Assembly: GCA_030668875.1 (NCBI GenBank)
Contig: DAOVER010000024.1
Location: 1-44,427, forward strand
Direction of reading: 5' to 3'
Length of the DNA stretch: 44,427 bases
DNA from: Candidatus Heimdallarchaeota archaeon
GTDB taxonomy: Archaea > Asgardarchaeota > Heimdallarchaeia > Heimdallarchaeales > Heimdallarchaeaceae
A program made the translations under genes and the position numbers. Every line of letters begins with the position of its first letter. Within the stretch, counting starts at the first letter, position 1. The notes under the pieces were generated by a model that saw only the letters and a program-made list of their open reading frames with translations, did no database searches and was not told where the DNA came from. Below, piece after piece: positions 13,007 to 40,070 of this stretch.

Positions 13007-13912
13007 ATGGAGAATCTATTTCGGTTAAAGCAAGACACAATACCAATCGTACTTATTGGTCTTCAATATGCTGGAAAAACTACACTTGTAAGCTGGTTAA
13101 AGGAGAAACGTTTTACTCGTCCAAAACCTACTGTTGGAGTAGTAGTTGAAAACATAAAAATAGGTGATATACTTTTCAATATTCACGATATATCAGGGCA
13201 AGAAGTTTTTCGAGAAAATATATGGAAGTCCAATATATTAACATCCATGGGAGTTGTTTTTGTTCTTGATTCTTCTGATACTTCAAGGTTAGATGAAGCT
13301 TTCACTTGGTATTGGAAGATGGTAAAGGAATGGTTAATTGAATCTTATTCAGATAAAGCAATTCTCTTTCTAGCTAACAAATCTGATCTGAAAACCGCCC
13401 TTAGTCTAGATGACATAATTAGCAAGATGAAACTGGATGAAATGTCTTCATATCCTAATATTTCTTTCCAATTCTTCAAAACTTCAGTAAGAAATGAAGA
13501 AAACATTGAACTTTCTTTTAAATGGTTTATTTCTAAGATTAAGAGTTTTAGGAAACTTCAATTCAAGAAATTCAAGGCACTCATTGTTTCCGATATTTTT
13601 GGAAATCCGCTATATGTTTATGACCCTGATAAAATTGCACAAGACACCGGAATGTTTGTCGGTTATATTAAAGCTTTGAGTGGGTTTGCAAATGAGATTC
13701 TAGGGCATGAGCAATTTAAAGTTCTGAAAGTTGATACAAACCACTTCTTCATTTCAGAGATTAATGAACACGTTGTGCTCATTGCAGTTGATCAAGAAGA
13801 AGCACTTCCTGAAGCGCGTAGACTATCTATATTGTTACATGAGTATTTAAAAAATAAGAATGTTGATATAACTACAGAATTGAACGTGCTTTTGAGTGAC
13901 TATGTAACATAG
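13007..13912 (+). CDS. Arf/Rag-like small GTPase with C-terminal longin/roadblock-like domain
   Basis: 301 aa. A complete G domain fills residues 10-180: G1 GLQYAGKTT (18-26), G2 T42, G3 DISGQ (61-65) with the catalytic-type Gln, G4 NKSD (124-127), G5 TSV (159-161). About 110 more residues follow (188-295) with an alternating strand/helix pattern (ALIVSDIFGNPLYVY, then helices, then HVVLIAVD and a long helix), compatible with a roadblock/longin (profilin-like) fold. This layout recalls Rag/Gtr GTPases. Two more GTPases at 33956-35956 share it. No CaaX or other C-terminal Cys is present. It is co-oriented with the helical protein upstream. Confidence 0.85.
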   Translation: MENLFRLKQDTIPIVLIGLQYAGKTTLVSWLKEKRFTRPKPTVGVVVENIKIGDILFNIHDISGQEVFRENIWKSNILTSMGVVFVLDSSDTSRLDEAFTWYWKMVKEWLIESYSDKAILFLANKSDLKTALSLDDIISKMKLDEMSSYPNISFQFFKTSVRNEENIELSFKWFISKIKSFRKLQFKKFKALIVSDIFGNPLYVYDPDKIAQDTGMFVGYIKALSGFANEILGHEQFKVLKVDTNHFFISEINEHVVLIAVDQEEALPEARRLSILLHEYLKNKNVDITTELNVLLSDYVT

Positions 13913-33171: not shown

Positions 33172-33942
33172 TTATACAGGAGATATTTCTATGTTGAGTA
33201 TCTCTAAAATACTCACCATTTCTTTTACATCTTCAACTGTTTTTACTCTCATTGAACTCTTAAACATACTAGAATTTAACTCTGATGCTACTTTGTAGAT
33301 ATTCCTTCTTCTCCATACATCCATTGAAGGATTATATAGGAGTATATACATTACATTTTTGTGCAAATCACAAAGAAGGTATGTATCAGCATATTCTAAT
33401 CTCTTACCAATCATTTCTTTCAAAGAATTATCTTGATTAACTCCAAAAATTCTGGGGATTTTTCCAGAGAACATATCAACCATTTTTAAGAAAACCTGTT
33501 TAATGGACGAAGGATTAATATCTGCTTCTGCGTTAAGACTTCTCGCTATTAGGGTGAAATAGGGTATAATGAGACCATAACTATCTAAAACTTCTCGTAC
33601 AGCTGAGCCTTCAAACAGGAAATATGCAACACATAATCTGAATCCTGCTTGCTCTATTCTCACATCAGTTGATGAGGTTATTTCTGTTTCAAAAGGAATA
33701 GCTATAGCTTTCAAACTTTCATTATCTGGGACAGGGATTGGACCAAGCATTTTTGGTTTTTGGCTTCCATCCAATCTACCGATTGAAGACTTATCCATTT
33801 CAACAAGGGTCATACCTGTCATAACTAGTGTTAGAGCTGTATTTTCTTCTAATGTAGAATTATTGAACAATATTTCTGGTCCATAATCTTTGAATATACT
33901 GAACACCAATGTTGGTTCTTTGGAAATGTTTGGATTTATCAT
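33172..33942 (-). CDS. Longin/roadblock-like partner protein of the GTPase operon
   Basis: 256 aa, soluble, no signal peptide. The first ~100 residues read as a small alpha/beta domain beginning PTLVFSIFKDYGPEILFNNS, a pattern like roadblock/longin folds (strand, G-P turn, strand). A second part with RIEQAGFRLCVAYFLFEG and a helical stretch follows, then a last domain with YADTYLLCDLHKNVMYILLYN. The fold assignment is an inference from the pattern. It is last of three genes after two GTPases, so it may bind or regulate them, as longin/roadblock proteins do for Rag or Rab GTPases. ATG 33942 has an excellent ribosome binding site; ATG 33963 is possible. Confidence 0.6.
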   Translation of the reverse strand: MINPNISKEPTLVFSIFKDYGPEILFNNSTLEENTALTLVMTGMTLVEMDKSSIGRLDGSQKPKMLGPIPVPDNESLKAIAIPFETEITSSTDVRIEQAGFRLCVAYFLFEGSAVREVLDSYGLIIPYFTLIARSLNAEADINPSSIKQVFLKMVDMFSGKIPRIFGVNQDNSLKEMIGKRLEYADTYLLCDLHKNVMYILLYNPSMDVWRRRNIYKVASELNSSMFKSSMRVKTVEDVKEMVSILEILNIEISPV

Positions 33943-33949
33943 TATTTTT

Positions 33950-33953
33950 CTCC
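33950..33953 (-). promoter_or_regulatory. Ribosome binding site deciding the longin-like gene start
   Basis: AAAAGGAG on the minus strand, with GGAG ending 7 bases before ATG 33942. It favours that start over the upstream ATG at 33963, which overlaps the preceding GTPase gene. Confidence 0.7.
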
Positions 33954-33955
33954 TT

Positions 33956-34945
33956 TTAATCATCCTTTATAGGTTCTTGATCTAAAGCAATTGCAATTTC
34001 AGGAATTTTGCTTAAGATTTCGTATTTAACTTGTTTTGGCATTTCTTTAGTCGGATCTCTATTCCGTTCTTCAATAAATGCTTGAAGGATTTCCTCGGCA
34101 AGAGATTGTGCTTTAGACTCACTATCATCTCTACCAACGAATAATACTATACTCCATCCACTTACTTTTCGAATAATCATCTTCATAGCGCCTAGTTTTA
34201 CAACATCCATCACAGATTCGCTTTCAAAGATAGTTGTAGCCATGATATTTAGTGCACTAATCAATCCGCCTAGCAATGTACTATCGTGCTCCTCAATGGA
34301 AGCATCAAAGGTATAGTCAAATGCGGGCACGCCTCCCTCTTGAAGAATAATAACTCTCCTTGGAGTTACATCTTCACGTAATGGTGTCCTCCCTGTCATT
34401 CTTGAAATAATCCAATCAAAAGCGGTATAGAAAGTTTCTCCTGTTTTGGCACTGATTGGATAAATTGAAACAGAACGATTTATATCGTCCATAATTATTT
34501 GAAATGCTGGATCTTGAAGTAAATCTACAAAAGGAACAGCATTTGGTTTGTCTATCTTGTTAGCAAGGAAAAGAATTGATGTCTTTTGAGGGATTCTATC
34601 AAGTAAGGTAAAAATATATTCAAAAGAAGCTTCAATATGTCTATTTGACTGAGTATCTATCACGAATACTACTCCATTAATCTCACCAAGAATATCTTGG
34701 AAGTAAGGACTTTCGCGAGCAGTTTCTTCACCTGCTTCAACAACTGAAAGAATGGTTGTACCATACTTTACATTAATGAAACAAGTAGATTGTTCAGGTT
34801 GTCCCTCAGCAATAGTTCCAAACATTAAACGATTAAGAACAGTAGACTTTCCTGAACCTTCTAGACCAAGAATAACTATTTGAGGGATTTTTCTATCCTT
34901 CTCAGACATCATCTTATCTCGTATAAATGAGAGATAGTTGCTCAA
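33956..34945 (-). CDS. Small GTPase-like protein with degenerate G3 box and C-terminal domain
   Basis: 329 aa. G1 is intact, GLEGSGKST (27-35), as are G4 NKID (129-132) and G5 SAK (165-167). The G3 box, normally DxxGQ, reads VEAGE (69-73): the Mg-coordinating Asp and catalytic Gln are both replaced, so GTP hydrolysis is probably weak or absent. Residues about 196-295 form a strand/helix domain (RVIILQEGGVPAFDY ... LLGGLISALNIM ... WSIVLFVGRD) that looks roadblock/longin-like. The start is TTG, directly after the upstream gene's stop, with GGAGG about 10 bases before it. The likely partner is the complete GTPase encoded upstream, as in Rag heterodimers. Confidence 0.8.
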   Translation of the reverse strand: MSNYLSFIRDKMMSEKDRKIPQIVILGLEGSGKSTVLNRLMFGTIAEGQPEQSTCFINVKYGTTILSVVEAGEETARESPYFQDILGEINGVVFVIDTQSNRHIEASFEYIFTLLDRIPQKTSILFLANKIDKPNAVPFVDLLQDPAFQIIMDDINRSVSIYPISAKTGETFYTAFDWIISRMTGRTPLREDVTPRRVIILQEGGVPAFDYTFDASIEEHDSTLLGGLISALNIMATTIFESESVMDVVKLGAMKMIIRKVSGWSIVLFVGRDDSESKAQSLAEEILQAFIEERNRDPTKEMPKQVKYEILSKIPEIAIALDQEPIKDD

Positions 34946-35956
34946 TTATCGTCTTCCTCCCTCTACTTCAAGTGGGAACTTACTTTCGAAGACTTCTCCT
35001 AAGTTTCTACTTACTTCAGCAGGGTTCCTACTGAAATTCTCTAAAATTCGCAGTTGAATCTGTTGAGCTCTTGTAACTGGATCAATTGGGTCAATCATTA
35101 CGGAAAGACAGTATGCTCCACGTTTAACATGACTAACATGTTTTTTATATAAATTCTCTAATTTTATTGATTGAATGCTTTCCTTAGTTTCTACTGCGAA
35201 CATTTTAGTTAATTCTTTTAATTTCTTAAAATCATTTGCTACAGTAGCTTGCTCATTGGGGTTACCAAAGATGGCTTCAGATATAATGGTACCTGAGATA
35301 TCTGTCAATACAGCAGCACCTATCTTAACTTTCCATTGCTGAGCACCGCAGAGCACATCAACTACCCAGTCCCACGCTTCATAGACACCTTGTCCTGTCA
35401 AAGCTGAAACTTTCTTAATATTGAATGGTCTGAGATTTCTTAGAAATTTATCTAATTCAAAATGTTCATTGATTTCAGATAATTCTTTAGAATTGGGTAA
35501 ATCACTTTTGTTTGCTAAAAATAATACAGGAGCATTTTGTTTTGCAAAGTTAATATAATGCCAAAATGTTTGTTTGGATTCGTCAAATCTTACATGATCA
35601 GCTGAATCTACCAAATATATCACAGCATCAGCTCGTTCAATAAATTTTTTCCATAAACTCAATCTAAAAGGTTGATGACCTCCTAGATCAAAGCAAGTGA
35701 AGTTTAAATCTCGATATTGATAGTTTTCTAAATTAATTCCATAAGTGGGTCTAACAACGATATCCTCTTGTTTTAACAGTTTTTTAACTAGCGAGGTTTT
35801 TCCAGCTCTTTCTAACCCTAATAACGCTACACTAAATTTGTTTCTCCCAACCACTGACTCTTGTTGAGCTGTTGTATCTGTCCTAGTTTTCTTTTCTTGC
35901 TTCTCTCGCTTAGCTTTTTCCTGCATTATACGTTTTCGAAATTCATAGAAAGACAT
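34946..35956 (-). CDS. Sar1/Arf-like small GTPase with C-terminal domain
   Basis: 336 aa. A basic helix (1-25) and flexible stretch precede the G domain: G1 GLERAGKTS (47-55), G2 T71 in RPTYGIN, G3 DLGGH (90-94), G4 NKSD (149-152), G5 SAL (184-186). The DLGGH box, with His where Arf has Gln, and the following LWKKFIERADAVIYLVDSAD strongly recall eukaryotic Sar1. Residues about 210-310 form an extra domain (GAAVLTDISGTIISEAIF ... YCLSVMIDP) with a roadblock/longin-like pattern. No lipidation Cys is present. It is first of three tightly packed genes. A GGTGA ribosome binding site lies 4 bases before the ATG. Confidence 0.87.
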   Translation of the reverse strand: MSFYEFRKRIMQEKAKREKQEKKTRTDTTAQQESVVGRNKFSVALLGLERAGKTSLVKKLLKQEDIVVRPTYGINLENYQYRDLNFTCFDLGGHQPFRLSLWKKFIERADAVIYLVDSADHVRFDESKQTFWHYINFAKQNAPVLFLANKSDLPNSKELSEINEHFELDKFLRNLRPFNIKKVSALTGQGVYEAWDWVVDVLCGAQQWKVKIGAAVLTDISGTIISEAIFGNPNEQATVANDFKKLKELTKMFAVETKESIQSIKLENLYKKHVSHVKRGAYCLSVMIDPIDPVTRAQQIQLRILENFSRNPAEVSRNLGEVFESKFPLEVEGGRR

Positions 35957-36124: not shown

Positions 36125-36949
36125 TTAACTTGGTATCCATCTTAAAACAAATAAAAGGATAGTAAGAATACCCAGGATAATACATACAATTGCGAAATTA
36201 TACTTGCGTGCAATAAGGAGGAATAATTCCATAGTGAGATAGCCAATGATAGCAGTTATCAAAACAGCTAAAATAAGCATCCACCAATCAGCGGGGAATA
36301 TGCTTTCATGATTAAATAGTTTAAATGTTAAATTAAGAATAAAACCTCCGAGTACAGCAGGTATACTCATAATGAAACTTCCTTTAATTGCATCTTCTTT
36401 ATTCACCGATAACAGAAACAAACCACTCATTGTGACGCCTGATCTACTAATACCGGGGATGATTGTGAACCCTTGGAACAGACCAATAATTGTCATTTCT
36501 TTTTTTGAGAGATCTTCAATTTTCTTCCCCGATTTCTGTTGCTTTTTTGCATAGAAGAGCAATCCAGCTGTCACAAGAAGTGCAACACCAACAATTAGCA
36601 TAACATACTCACCTATAGAAGGTTCAAGGTCTAGATAGTAAATAAATAAAAGATAGCAAGGTACACCTATGATTATTGTCCCGAGGGTGCTTAGAACTAA
36701 AAACCATCTCCATTGTACGGTTACAGAATCCCTAACTCTTGGATTAATATAGAGAACTATTTCTTTGTGATACTTTACTGATACAGCAATAAGCGTCCCC
36801 AAATGAAGCCACAAGGCAAGATCTAGAGCACTAGTAGAAGGAACTCCTAGTAAAGTTGAAACAGTTATTATTTGTCCTTCAGAACTCACAGGTAACCATT
36901 CAAGAATGCCTTGAAGAAATGCGAGCAGTAGAAGTATCCAGAAAAGCAT
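36125..36949 (-). CDS. uppP: Undecaprenyl/polyprenyl-diphosphatase UppP (BacA)
   Basis: 274-aa membrane enzyme that removes a phosphate from polyprenyl diphosphate so the lipid carrier can be reused in glycan assembly. The two active-site motifs are QGILEWLPVSSEG (13-25) with the catalytic Glu, and PGISRSG (165-171). About eight hydrophobic segments fit the family. In archaea the likely carrier is a dolichol-type lipid, used for N-glycans or surface polysaccharide; the glycosyltransferase at 653 could draw on that pool. It lies 34 bases after the lipoyl-carrier gene on the same strand and may share its transcript. Confidence 0.92.
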   Translation of the reverse strand: MLFWILLLLAFLQGILEWLPVSSEGQIITVSTLLGVPSTSALDLALWLHLGTLIAVSVKYHKEIVLYINPRVRDSVTVQWRWFLVLSTLGTIIIGVPCYLLFIYYLDLEPSIGEYVMLIVGVALLVTAGLLFYAKKQQKSGKKIEDLSKKEMTIIGLFQGFTIIPGISRSGVTMSGLFLLSVNKEDAIKGSFIMSIPAVLGGFILNLTFKLFNHESIFPADWWMLILAVLITAIIGYLTMELFLLIARKYNFAIVCIILGILTILLFVLRWIPS

Positions 36950-36983
36950 CTCGAGAATAGAAGGAAAAAATGGTTATAAAAAT

Positions 36984-37424
36984 CTATTCTTGGCTAATTC
37001 TCCACCGAATGTATTCTTCTAGTTTTTCTCCAACGGGTACAATGTTTTCATTTTCCGCTATAGCGACTTCAAAGTTTTTTATTTTTAATAAAAGAATCCA
37101 ACCTTCTCCATAAGGGTCGGAATTCAAGAGATTTGGTTCATTTTTTAGTCTTTCATTCTTTTCTAAAATTACTCCATTAAAAGGAGATTTTATTTGTCCT
37201 ATCCATTTACCACTTTCATAAGTTCCTATCACTTGATCTTTTTTCACTCGTTTCTCAATTTTCATTGTACGAACATATTCAATATCTCCAGCTCTTTTTG
37301 ATACATAATCATCAACACCCAAAATAACTTCAGTGTCAGATTTTTTCTTTATCCAAAAATGACCGGGTTCGCCGGTTACATAAAGCAGATTGTCAGGGAA
37401 GATATATTGTTCTATATTTATCAT
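36984..37424 (-). CDS. Lipoyl-carrier protein resembling glycine cleavage H protein
   Basis: 146 aa with the H-protein layout. The lipoyl-lysine hairpin is K73 in TYESGKWIGQIKSPFNG, where ordinary H proteins have ESVKA, and the later LLNSDPYGEGWI motif is fully typical. The N-terminus (DNLLYVTGEPGHFWIKKK) follows the family but is altered. The gene overlaps the flavoprotein gene by 4 bases and belongs to a redox operon rather than a glycine cleavage cluster; no P or T protein is near. An electron- or thiol-carrier role, as seen for lipoyl carriers tied to Hdr-like complexes, is more likely than glycine cleavage. Confidence 0.8.
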   Translation of the reverse strand: MINIEQYIFPDNLLYVTGEPGHFWIKKKSDTEVILGVDDYVSKRAGDIEYVRTMKIEKRVKKDQVIGTYESGKWIGQIKSPFNGVILEKNERLKNEPNLLNSDPYGEGWILLLKIKNFEVAIAENENIVPVGEKLEEYIRWRISQE

Positions 37425-38833
37425 GAAAACTCACTTGCTATTCGAATAACGAATTTTAACTTAAATAGGGGGAAAAATCTCATCTTAGGTGAACATACTT
37501 TCCCAGGATTGCTTATATTTTTTGGATCAACTTTTTTCTTGAATTCCTTATAGCGTTTATACATTGCTTCTCCATAGATTTGAGGGTAGTAACCTGCAAA
37601 CCACAAACCTGTAGAATATGGAAATCCACCAATTTTTCTGCTTTTCAAAACATGTTTATTGATTTTGAGTATTAGGAGAGACTTCTTGAAATCATTAATT
37701 GGTTCTTCAATTGGAAGATAAAGTAATAACGCATAATGAGTCTTGGAGATTAGTTCACCTTCAACTCTTAATGAACCTTCGAAAAGACCAGCTAATTTCC
37801 TAAGATATTTTGCGCTAGTTTCAATTGGTAGTATCACTTCAGAGACTAGAAAATCAGGATACTCTTTTAATAGTGCAAGTGTTTTGAAACGAAAATCCCA
37901 GATATCCGTTATGTACCTTTTGTCAAGAATTTGACCACTTGCTTTTCTTATTGTATTATTGAAATTATTACTAAATGTAAGTTCTTCCTCCTCATAACTG
38001 ATTTCTTTTGAGATAATAGCAACATAACTACGAGGAAGGTTATATCCAAAATAATCATTGAAAGCTGAAACTTGAGAAGGATTAAGGAACCAGACAGAGA
38101 AAGGATCAACATTTTGCAATTCCTTCAATCCTTTCATTAATTCTACAGGAGAATCAAAAATACAACCAAATTGCTTTAGAGGAATGTCAAATTTGATTTT
38201 AAGTTTTATCTCAGTTATAATACCTAAAGTCCCATTAGATCCAAAGAATAAAGCAATATCCTCTTTTTCATTAAAGGATTGTACTTCTCCATTTGGAAGA
38301 ACAACTTGCATTTCTGCAATTTGATCAACAACATTTCCATATTTTACACTGCCAATACCATGCCCACCATGAGATATCCAACCACCAACTGTGGCAGAAT
38401 AGTAACTTGATGGGTATGAGCAGAGTGAGAATCCTTGTAACTTCAATTTTTTCTGTAATTCTGAGAAGATGATTGATGGAGATGTTGTAACGGTTTGATC
38501 AATTGGTTCAATAAGAAGCTCTCTGTCTAATCCTTTACAATCTATGACTAAACCCTTATTGCAAGGGATACTACCTCCAAAACCTGTTGTTCCTCCACTA
38601 CGAGGTACAATGGGTGTTTTTGTTTCAGTAGCTAAATTGTATACTCTTTGAATATCTTCAACATTTCTGGGTAAAATAATCCCATCTGGTGTGCTATTGA
38701 AGAGTAATTTTGTGAGATTAGGGAGCTCTGCCATATCTCTAGAATAAATTTGTAACGCAGTATAATCTTCCTTCATTTGTTTTCCAAGATATCTGACAAA
38801 TTTTGTTCTAGTTTTCTTCTTCATATTCATCAT
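37421..38833 (-). CDS. FAD-linked oxidoreductase, GlcD/LldD2-like
   Basis: 470 aa of the VAO/GlcD flavoprotein family, which oxidises 2-hydroxy acids such as D-lactate, glycolate or 2-hydroxyglutarate. The FAD-binding PP-loop region has IVPRSGGTTGFGGS, followed by PSSYYSATVGGWISHGGHGIGSVKYGNVVDQI, both hallmark motifs. LFFGSNGTLGIITEIKLKI completes the domain, and the C-terminal FAD-oxidase_C half ends in NPGKVCSPK. It overlaps the Fe-S gene upstream and the lipoyl-carrier gene downstream by 4 bases each, so the three proteins are probably made together as one enzyme system. Confidence 0.88.
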   Translation of the reverse strand: MMNMKKKTRTKFVRYLGKQMKEDYTALQIYSRDMAELPNLTKLLFNSTPDGIILPRNVEDIQRVYNLATETKTPIVPRSGGTTGFGGSIPCNKGLVIDCKGLDRELLIEPIDQTVTTSPSIIFSELQKKLKLQGFSLCSYPSSYYSATVGGWISHGGHGIGSVKYGNVVDQIAEMQVVLPNGEVQSFNEKEDIALFFGSNGTLGIITEIKLKIKFDIPLKQFGCIFDSPVELMKGLKELQNVDPFSVWFLNPSQVSAFNDYFGYNLPRSYVAIISKEISYEEEELTFSNNFNNTIRKASGQILDKRYITDIWDFRFKTLALLKEYPDFLVSEVILPIETSAKYLRKLAGLFEGSLRVEGELISKTHYALLLYLPIEEPINDFKKSLLILKINKHVLKSRKIGGFPYSTGLWFAGYYPQIYGEAMYKRYKEFKKKVDPKNISNPGKVCSPKMRFFPLFKLKFVIRIASEFS

Positions 38834-40011
38834 TCTCCTATTGCTCTTCTAACTAGTTCAGCAATATCGATGACTTCAACGTCAAGTCCCTTCTTTTTCA
38901 CACCTTGTTGTATTGTATCTAGACATGTAGGACAACCATTTACTACAATCTCTGCTTCTGAATATTCGATCTCCTCGATTAATCGAGAATTAACTTGACG
39001 TGTTAAATCTTCATCATTAAGCTTAAGCAATCCTCCACCTCCACAGCACAACGCTTCTTCTCTGTTTGATGGAAGATCCTCATATCTTATTCCAGGTATC
39101 TTTTCAATTATTTCTCTTGGAGGTTCTATCAACCCACAATGCCTGACTAATTCACATGGATCTTTGAATGTTATTTTTTCCTTGATTGTTTTCTTATATT
39201 TCAATTTCTTCTGTTCCAATAATTCGGCAACAAATTCTGAGATATGTAAAACTTCTAAGTCCCATTTGTCACCTAGAATGCGGGGATAAACAATTTTAAA
39301 AGCTCTATAACAGCCAGCACAAGCAGTCACCACTCGCTTAACACCTAGTTTTTTGAATTGTTCTAGGTTATGTTTAGCAAAGGTTTTTCCAACAGAGTAT
39401 CCTCCTGCCAAGAACACAGGGGATCCGCAACACCATTCTTCGTTTCCTAGTATAGTAAAATCCACTCTAGCTTTTCTTAATATTTTTACTACACTAGCTG
39501 CAACACCTTCCATCTTACCAGAATATGAGGCTTGACAACCTACAAAATAAGCTACTGAAGCCTTTCTCTGTGTTCTTTTTGTCATGACCATATTGGCCAA
39601 ATCTGCCCAAGAAACTCTCTCTTCTTTAGGAAGACCAAAGATATTTTGTGTGTCTTTAACTTTGTTATATATAGAAAGTAGAGCAGGGTTCCATCTACCT
39701 CTTTTGAAAGCTTCTTGTCTTACTTGTTCCCAAATTTTTAGCAATGGGATATCTGCAATACAGATATTTTCACATGCTTTGCACATTGTACAAGCAAAAA
39801 TTGAATCAAAGAGAGATTTAGAGATGTCACCTTTAAGTTCCTCTTTCGTAGTTTCTAGAAAATACATTTTTATTTGTTCCAAAATACCACGAGGATGGTA
39901 AGTTTCCCATTTTAACTCTCTAAATGTGGGACATACAGAACAATAGCCACAATATACACATTGTTGTGCTGCTTCTAAAATATCAACTTGCCATTCATTA
40001 GACGAACTCAT
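38830..40011 (-). CDS. Fe-S oxidoreductase with CCG domains (GlpC/HdrD-like)
   Basis: 393 aa. Two N-terminal cysteine sets for [4Fe-4S] clusters come first: C18, C21, C24, C27 (QQCVYCGYCSVCP), then CTMCKACENICIADIP. Two CCG domains follow, each with paired cysteines: FVGCQASYSG with EEWCCGSPVFLAGG, and FKDPCELVRHCG with ALCCGGGGLLKL; CAGCYR and GCPTC complete them. In GlpC and HdrD such domains pass electrons between flavoproteins and thiols or quinones. The first set has only two residues before its last Cys, one fewer than usual. ATG 40011 is preferred to TTG 40017. Confidence 0.88.
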   Translation of the reverse strand: MSSSNEWQVDILEAAQQCVYCGYCSVCPTFRELKWETYHPRGILEQIKMYFLETTKEELKGDISKSLFDSIFACTMCKACENICIADIPLLKIWEQVRQEAFKRGRWNPALLSIYNKVKDTQNIFGLPKEERVSWADLANMVMTKRTQRKASVAYFVGCQASYSGKMEGVAASVVKILRKARVDFTILGNEEWCCGSPVFLAGGYSVGKTFAKHNLEQFKKLGVKRVVTACAGCYRAFKIVYPRILGDKWDLEVLHISEFVAELLEQKKLKYKKTIKEKITFKDPCELVRHCGLIEPPREIIEKIPGIRYEDLPSNREEALCCGGGGLLKLNDEDLTRQVNSRLIEEIEYSEAEIVVNGCPTCLDTIQQGVKKKGLDVEVIDIAELVRRAIGE

Positions 40012-40070
40012 AAACAATAAAAAAATCGCTTTATTCCTTTAATGTCTTGTGGTTATGTTCGCTAATACAA

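Follow-up and report, generated by a model that had tools for sequence, protein, structure and literature searches.

What do three adjacent genes for two GTPases and a small partner protein do together in the genome of a Candidatus Heimdallarchaeota archaeon? The genes, here A, B, and C, lie head to tail in A-B-C order on the minus strand of a 44,427-nucleotide (nt) stretch (positions 1 to 44,427 of contig DAOVER010000024.1, assembly GCA_030668875.1; the whole stretch is hereafter the window), and all coordinates of features within them are on that strand. Our tentative reading, which we would put a little short of even, is that the products of this operon are an Arf-type GTPase (A), a second GTPase without the catalytic motif (B), and a predicted longin-gelsolin protein (C) that is likely the GTPase-activating protein (GAP) of A, and that A and B probably pair via their C-terminal domains. 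The basis for this by sequence is the gene order, the states of the G boxes, the C-terminal domain common to A and B, and invariant arginines in C; the longin fold of C and its likeness to subunits of Rag/Arf GAPs are predicted. A first-pass annotation had foreseen neither the second, gelsolin-like domain of C, its matches to GAP longins, and its conserved arginines, nor the Rag-family operons with C-like longins described below.

That annotation proposed a check of gene order in relatives, and conservation was borne out. Of the 23 genomes in the window's family (f1), 21 carry A-B-C in this order, with a gene cut by the contig end in four and A split in one (G014); among the remainder, G013 has B-C at a contig edge, making a 22nd genome, and G016 has none. 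The same order was kept in 7/9 genomes of f6, a family from another order of the same class. The flanks of the trio are alike in most f1 loci and different in Ca. Heimdallarchaeum endolithica PR6 (L087) and in f6 (L090-L097), and the order appears to be more than chance because it is kept in two families with differing flanks. In a phylogenetic tree, the B rows sampled from the two families (11) grouped in one clade (100/99), and the 11 A rows grouped in another that also held four A-like proteins (100/98); since A and B rows form separate cross-family clades, the divergence of A from B appears to predate the two families. Several paralogues from the source genome (G000) were long-branched and of uncertain placement, and only the A and B clades were relied on. 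Across the phylum (227 genomes), a profile of C matched 56 at a threshold of 1e-5, with 55 of these among the 58 genomes of the window's class; named relatives of C include HM4_B41, AB_125, and PR6. The split of gene A in G014 (L010:491-1500) looks like a frameshift, and the named locus L070 looks alike; an assembly error could account for it. In f6, C is followed on the same strand by a gene for a small, N-terminally extended GTPase (L090:3921-4391, L091:6893-7444, and equivalents).

The genes are closely packed. A ends with TAA (34946-34948) and the TTG start of B follows at 34945, with zero gap and in frame; across the 20 f1 loci with both genes, this junction has zero gap in 16, a 1-nt overlap in two, a 4-nt overlap in one, and a 3-nt gap in one (PR6), while the gap in f6 is 107-149 nt. 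Gene C probably starts at ATG 33942, and the ATG at 33963 in the list of open reading frames (ORFs) is probably an artefact, because a Shine-Dalgarno-like AAGGAG (33950..33955, read from the sequence) precedes ATG 33942, ATG 33963 is unconserved, and the product is 255-256 amino acids (aa) long in 20/22 f1 loci (L009-L030), the others being the window (263 aa by its first ATG) and one contig-end truncation. The spacing between B and C is then 13 nt. The trio had been described as running stop to start on one strand, which held for the placement of all three ORFs and the gapless A/B junction but not for C, with its later start and its gap from B.

Gene A (34946..35956) is an ORF with an ATG start encoding a 336-aa Arf/Sar1-like GTPase with a C-terminal domain. 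It belongs to the Arf/Sar family (PF00025, 136 bits, cut-off 22.3), and its score of 27.1 bits against Gtr1_RagA (PF04670) is far lower, so Rag is not its best family. As the first-pass annotation had reported, the G domain is complete, with G1 GLERAGKT, the switch I Thr, G3 DLGGH, NKSD, and SAL. The P-loop (residues 47-54, 35795..35818) reads GxxxAGKT in 69/70 A sequences, with one gapped; G3 (residues 90-94, 35675..35689) reads DLGGH in 68/70, with DAGGH in one and a gap in one, and the catalytic DxGG[QH] is thus present in 69/70. We take DLGGH, with His at the Gln position, to be of the Sar1 type. The best Protein Data Bank (PDB) matches of A were Arf/Arl proteins and the Asgard ArfR1 (8ouk, 8oum), with Arl3 and Arf1 among the closest G domains. 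An N-terminal helix, a candidate for the amphipathic membrane helix of the Arf/Sar family, is predicted at residues 3-24 (AlphaFold2, AF2, with DSSP); its hydrophobic moment was not above that of shuffled peptides (1203 of 2000 were as high), nor was that of any of the six peptides tried.

Gene B (33956..34945), an ORF with a TTG start, encodes a 329-aa degenerate Arf-like GTPase that also has a C-terminal domain. It too is of Arf type (PF00025, 71.6 bits, same cut-off), with 17 bits against PF04670, under the cut-off of 22. Its boxes are G1 GLEGSGKS, G3 EAGEE (residues 70-74, 34724..34738), NKID, and SAK. The P-loop is kept in 54/56 orthologue rows, the other two being gapped; some of the distant rows carry NKxN or a similar motif at NKxD. 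G3 is degenerate throughout: one of the 56 rows is gapped there, and in all 55 aligned sequences the Gly of DxxG is replaced by E, K, R, or Q and the Gln/His position by E or D, leaving the catalytic DxGG[QH] in none (0/55). B had been described as lacking both the Asp and the Gln for hydrolysis; the loss of Gln/His is universal here and extends to the Gly, but the Asp position holds D in 30 sequences and E in 25. Because its operon place, P-loop, and C-terminal domain are all kept, B resembles a degenerate GTPase that has been conserved, not a gene in decay.

The C-terminal stretches are some 130-140 aa long in both A (residues 206-336, 34949..35341) and B (residues 190-329, 33959..34378) and are homologous to each other (HHalign 93.8%, E 1.8e-7). 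Their predicted topology (AF2/DSSP), b-b-a-b-b-b-a, is the core common to roadblock and longin folds, with predicted local distance difference test (pLDDT) confidence good in A (blocks of 74-91 over residues 211-310) and low in part of B (blocks of 48-80, lowest in the central helix). The first-pass annotation had proposed a profile check against the roadblock family; HHalign with 20 Asgard roadblock proteins gave no sequence link, with only 0.5% for A and 1.5% for B. The same annotation had seen about 100 extra residues per GTPase and a pair resembling Rag/Gtr heterodimers. An intact and a degenerate member with homologous C-terminal domains are indeed present, but the G domains are Arf-type by Pfam. 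Family f4 has a protein of ~200 aa encoded behind a C homologue (L134:4852-5445, L135:4866-5483), and both copies of this protein weakly match the C-terminal domain of B; the L134 copy also has a Fuz_longin_1 match of 1.2e-4, under the cut-off.

Gene C (33172..33942) encodes a 256-aa protein predicted to combine a longin and a gelsolin-like domain, and we regard it as a candidate GAP. Its AF2 model (pLDDT 85.8, predicted template modelling score, pTM, 0.75) shows both folds, and together with fold matches it delimits the longin domain (residues 8-162, 33457..33921) and the gelsolin-like domain (residues 163-256, 33175..33456); the proposal that the third protein is longin-like is in keeping with this prediction. 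The longin matches in the PDB fold search were subunits of Rag/Arf GAPs (FLCN, NPRL2/Npr2, Lst4, C9orf72-SMCR8) and one Lokiarchaeal longin: among the best 50 fold matches, 15 rows were longins, 14 of them from Rag/Arf GAP complexes (Lst4, FLCN-FNIP2, C9orf72-SMCR8, GATOR1, SEACIT) and one an Asgard longin. SNARE, AP, and TRAPP longins were absent from the 50 listed matches, which excludes nothing. Nine C relatives searched against Pfam gave sub-cut-off matches only, with no longin or gelsolin family among them.

Invariant residues of C fall at the junction of predicted strands 4 and 5, where the stretch S-x-D-x-R95-I-x3-G-x-R102 places R95 within the loop and R102 where strand 5 begins in the AF2 model. 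Arg102 (33637..33639), the second residue of strand 5 (101-111), is a candidate arginine finger, and Arg95 (33658..33660), in the loop motif DxR[IL], is a second; D93, R95, G100, and R102 are invariant in 74/74 close relatives. NPRL2 R78 and FLCN R164 immediately precede a hydrophobic stretch, like R102 of C (the residues were checked in the sequences). That stretch is probably strand 5 in those two proteins, and FLCN R164 is presumably the catalytic arginine. According to one study, Avl9 and other longin GAPs of the DENN type carry their finger between longin strands 4 and 5 (PMC12803157), and two others place SMCR8 R147 in the ARF1 site (PMC8213707) and NPRL2 R78 on a longin loop (PMC8534245). 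R95 and R102 of the C model would thus sit at the strand 4-5 junction, near the finger position of longin GAPs, and are candidates for that role.

How far these arginines track GTPases was assessed in a wide C set of 57 rows (56 proteins, as that of L150 was entered twice), in which R95 is present in 55/57. R102 is found in all 22 GTPase-linked rows (11 from family f5, three from f7, and eight trio orthologues, for which linkage was directly seen in the window and PR6) and is lost in 4/4 f3 rows without a GTPase neighbour, four of the eight f3 genomes having been looked at. This association of R102 with GTPase linkage is suggestive, not proof.

Relatives of C also lie within operons of Rag-family GTPases. 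We detected in 11/12 f5 genomes an operon of a PF04670 GTPase, a degenerate GTPase, a C-like longin, and another PF04670 GTPase; the genome counted without it (G054) has two C matches that lie outside the inspected loci. At L157 (2511-6255) the first GTPase matches PF04670 at 1.4e-33 and the last at 4.4e-32, and the operon is followed by a 183-aa protein without known family and then an M50 peptidase. The same operon was seen at L150, L154-L156, L158-L160, L162, L165, and L166, and the degenerate GTPase has the P-loop GLSHSGKD and NRGH for NKxD (10 loci). Family f5 is probably Hodarchaeota, because its GTPase groups with proteins, one of them so named. One f7 genome (L164) has two PF04670 GTPases (8.8e-35, 4.9e-36) and then a C-like longin. 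Unlike A and B, the operon GTPases of L157 and L164 have Gtr1_RagA as their top Pfam family. Counted over the 61 C-family rows of f5/f7, with other families excluded and the PF04670 rows being those among the matches listed, at least 23/61 C-family genes lie within 2.5 kilobases (kb) of a PF04670 match. In three single-contig genomes, which are relatives of each other, at least 6/14 lie near PF04670 against 0.07 expected, and none of 20,000 rotations was as high. Additionally, 8/12 f5 genomes have a PF04670 GTPase on the opposite strand no more than 2.5 kb from a C-like gene, and at L147 (4027-9769) two tandem C-like longin proteins (341 and 345 aa) have as neighbours two GTPases, which carry DCGGQ and DLGGQ and one of which is 739 aa long.

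Taken as one system, A would be the switch, cycling between GTP and GDP, and B may hold nucleotide without hydrolysing it, providing A and C with a fixed scaffold. The two GTPases would pair through their homologous C-terminal domains, and C would dock on the pair and insert Arg102 (or Arg95) in the site of A, turning A off. The gelsolin-like domain of C may tie this switch to another protein, perhaps actin.

Several results weigh against this proposal. Foldseek of C against the PDB gave no match at E 0.001 or better, the best being 1.7e-3 (8yqg_B); searches of C against Pfam (E 1), NCBIfam, and PDB sequences gave no match; and HHalign of C with single NPRL2 and FLCN sequences gave 0.2% or less, so no homology was detectable. 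Longin folds also act in guanine nucleotide exchange factors (GEFs), according to the parts of two sources at hand (PMC8534245; PMC10933270), and the known longin GAPs are longin heterodimers, whereas the trio encodes a single longin. No related GTPase adjoins the C relatives in f3, in f4, in part of f5/f7, or in the f6 paralogue. Because R102 is kept in 28/34 rows not counted as GTPase-linked, the arginines of C may be structural. Finally, the read-through (fused) A-B model had a pTM of 0.39 and no confident arrangement, and we therefore make no claim of an A:B heterodimer; the listed matches in fold searches with that model were to G domains only.

In the signal recognition particle receptor, the longin-like SRX domain binds the Arf-like SR-beta, and C may likewise be a longin scaffold permanently bound to a hydrolysis-dead, GTP-locked B, with A recruited by the C-terminal domain of B. 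B is Arf-like with a lost G3, and A and B both match the SRPRB family (4.6e-10 and, below cut-off, 3.3e-5), but scaffolding would have no need of the invariant strand 4-5 arginines, and we consider this account unlikely. No SRX chain was among the listed fold matches of C, which excludes nothing. It is similarly improbable, in our view, that C serves as a GEF or an effector platform, its longin activating A or reading A-GTP, as in Mon1-Ccz1 and TRAPP. The service of longin folds in GEFs and the tight gene run, with C close behind B, would suit such a role, but the longin matches of C, among those listed, are GAP subunits and none are GEF longins.

An output through actin, with the gelsolin-like domain as the effective part, the GTPases recruiting it to a membrane, and the longin used for docking only, seems highly improbable: the 11 f5 relatives from Rag operons do not retain its residues W210, R211, and R213. 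We continue to favour, tentatively, C as a GAP for A.

Elsewhere in the window, BacA-like, GcvH-like, FAD-linked oxidase, and Fe-S/CCG genes lie upstream of the trio (36125-40017, minus strand); they are present in most f1 loci and absent beside the trio in PR6 and f6. A paralogue of A and B, a 301-aa Arf-like GTPase with a C-terminal extension, is encoded at 13007-13912 on the plus strand, and contig C18 of the source genome (L002, L003, L005) carries four more Arf-like GTPases of ~300-316 aa in two adjacent pairs.

More broadly, it is possible, if rather doubtful, that Heimdall archaea carry complete, operon-encoded forerunners of eukaryotic Rag/Arf control, each an active and a dead GTPase with an arginine-finger longin GAP, in Arf-type (the trio) and Rag-type (f5/f7) versions, and that GAPs of the FLCN/GATOR1/C9orf72 kind are pre-eukaryotic and began as single longin-gelsolin proteins. 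If true, these archaea would hold a simple forerunner of the control system for Rag and Arf GTPases in human cells. The class to which the window's lineage belongs has been proposed as ancestral to eukaryotes (PMC10307638). Asgard archaea have many Rag-like and Arf-like GTPases, and pairing them with GAPs or GEFs from genome layout was difficult in Ca. Prometheoarchaeum MK-D1, as the available text of PMC10933270 has it; a review, in the portion at hand, asks whether Rag homologues could open archaeal nutrient sensing to study (PMC4917890). The trio, like the Rag-family operons that contain related longins, points to specific GTPase-regulator pairs for expression and assay. The parts themselves are known from Asgard archaea (PMC10933270; PMC4917890): paired Rag-like genes, gelsolins, longins, and Arf-like GTPases with roadblock or longin domains. 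In the open-licence PMC literature, of which partial texts were available, we found no conserved intact/dead/longin operon, no longin-gelsolin protein, and no archaeal longin GAP candidate tied to a GTPase.

Among characterised systems, the eukaryotic Rag GAPs FLCN-FNIP and GATOR1 (NPRL2/NPRL3) share with C the longin fold, which in C is predicted, and NPRL2 R78, FLCN R164, and C R102 each lie at the edge of a hydrophobic strand. These GAPs act on GTPase pairs with C-terminal domains, and the trio also encodes such a pair. C differs in lacking detectable sequence homology to them, in having one longin and not two, in a proposed substrate that is Arf-type by Pfam, and in having a gelsolin-like domain in place of DENN or the NPRL2 C-terminus. 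Sar1/Sec23 offers another parallel, since A has DLGGH and Sec23 chains appear in the Foldseek list of C (E 0.01-0.08). Sec23 contains a gelsolin-like domain; C, at 256 aa, shows two domains only. The Asgard ArfR1 is a single-domain protein of ~180-190 aa, unlike A with its C-terminal domain. C9orf72-SMCR8, a longin-DENN GAP of ARF1, has a longin fold like that predicted for C (matches 6lt0_C and 7mge_C), an Arf-type substrate as proposed for the trio, and, in the excerpted text of PMC8213707, an arginine finger in SMCR8 comparable to the candidate arginines of C, but no DENN or WDR41 part was recognised in C and there was no sequence match. Rag/Gtr heterodimers and the paired Rag-like genes of MK-D1 resemble A/B as adjacent GTPase genes with C-terminal domains of roadblock/longin topology (predicted in A and B), whereas A and B have Arf-type G domains and one member has lost G3; the trio also has a longin gene within the GTPase operon, which is not general in MK-D1 as far as the available parts of the source go (PMC10933270). 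By function, the trio would work like the Rag/Arf longin-GAP systems, while by sequence C stands outside the FLCN/NPRL2 families and by G domain the GTPases stand outside Rag.

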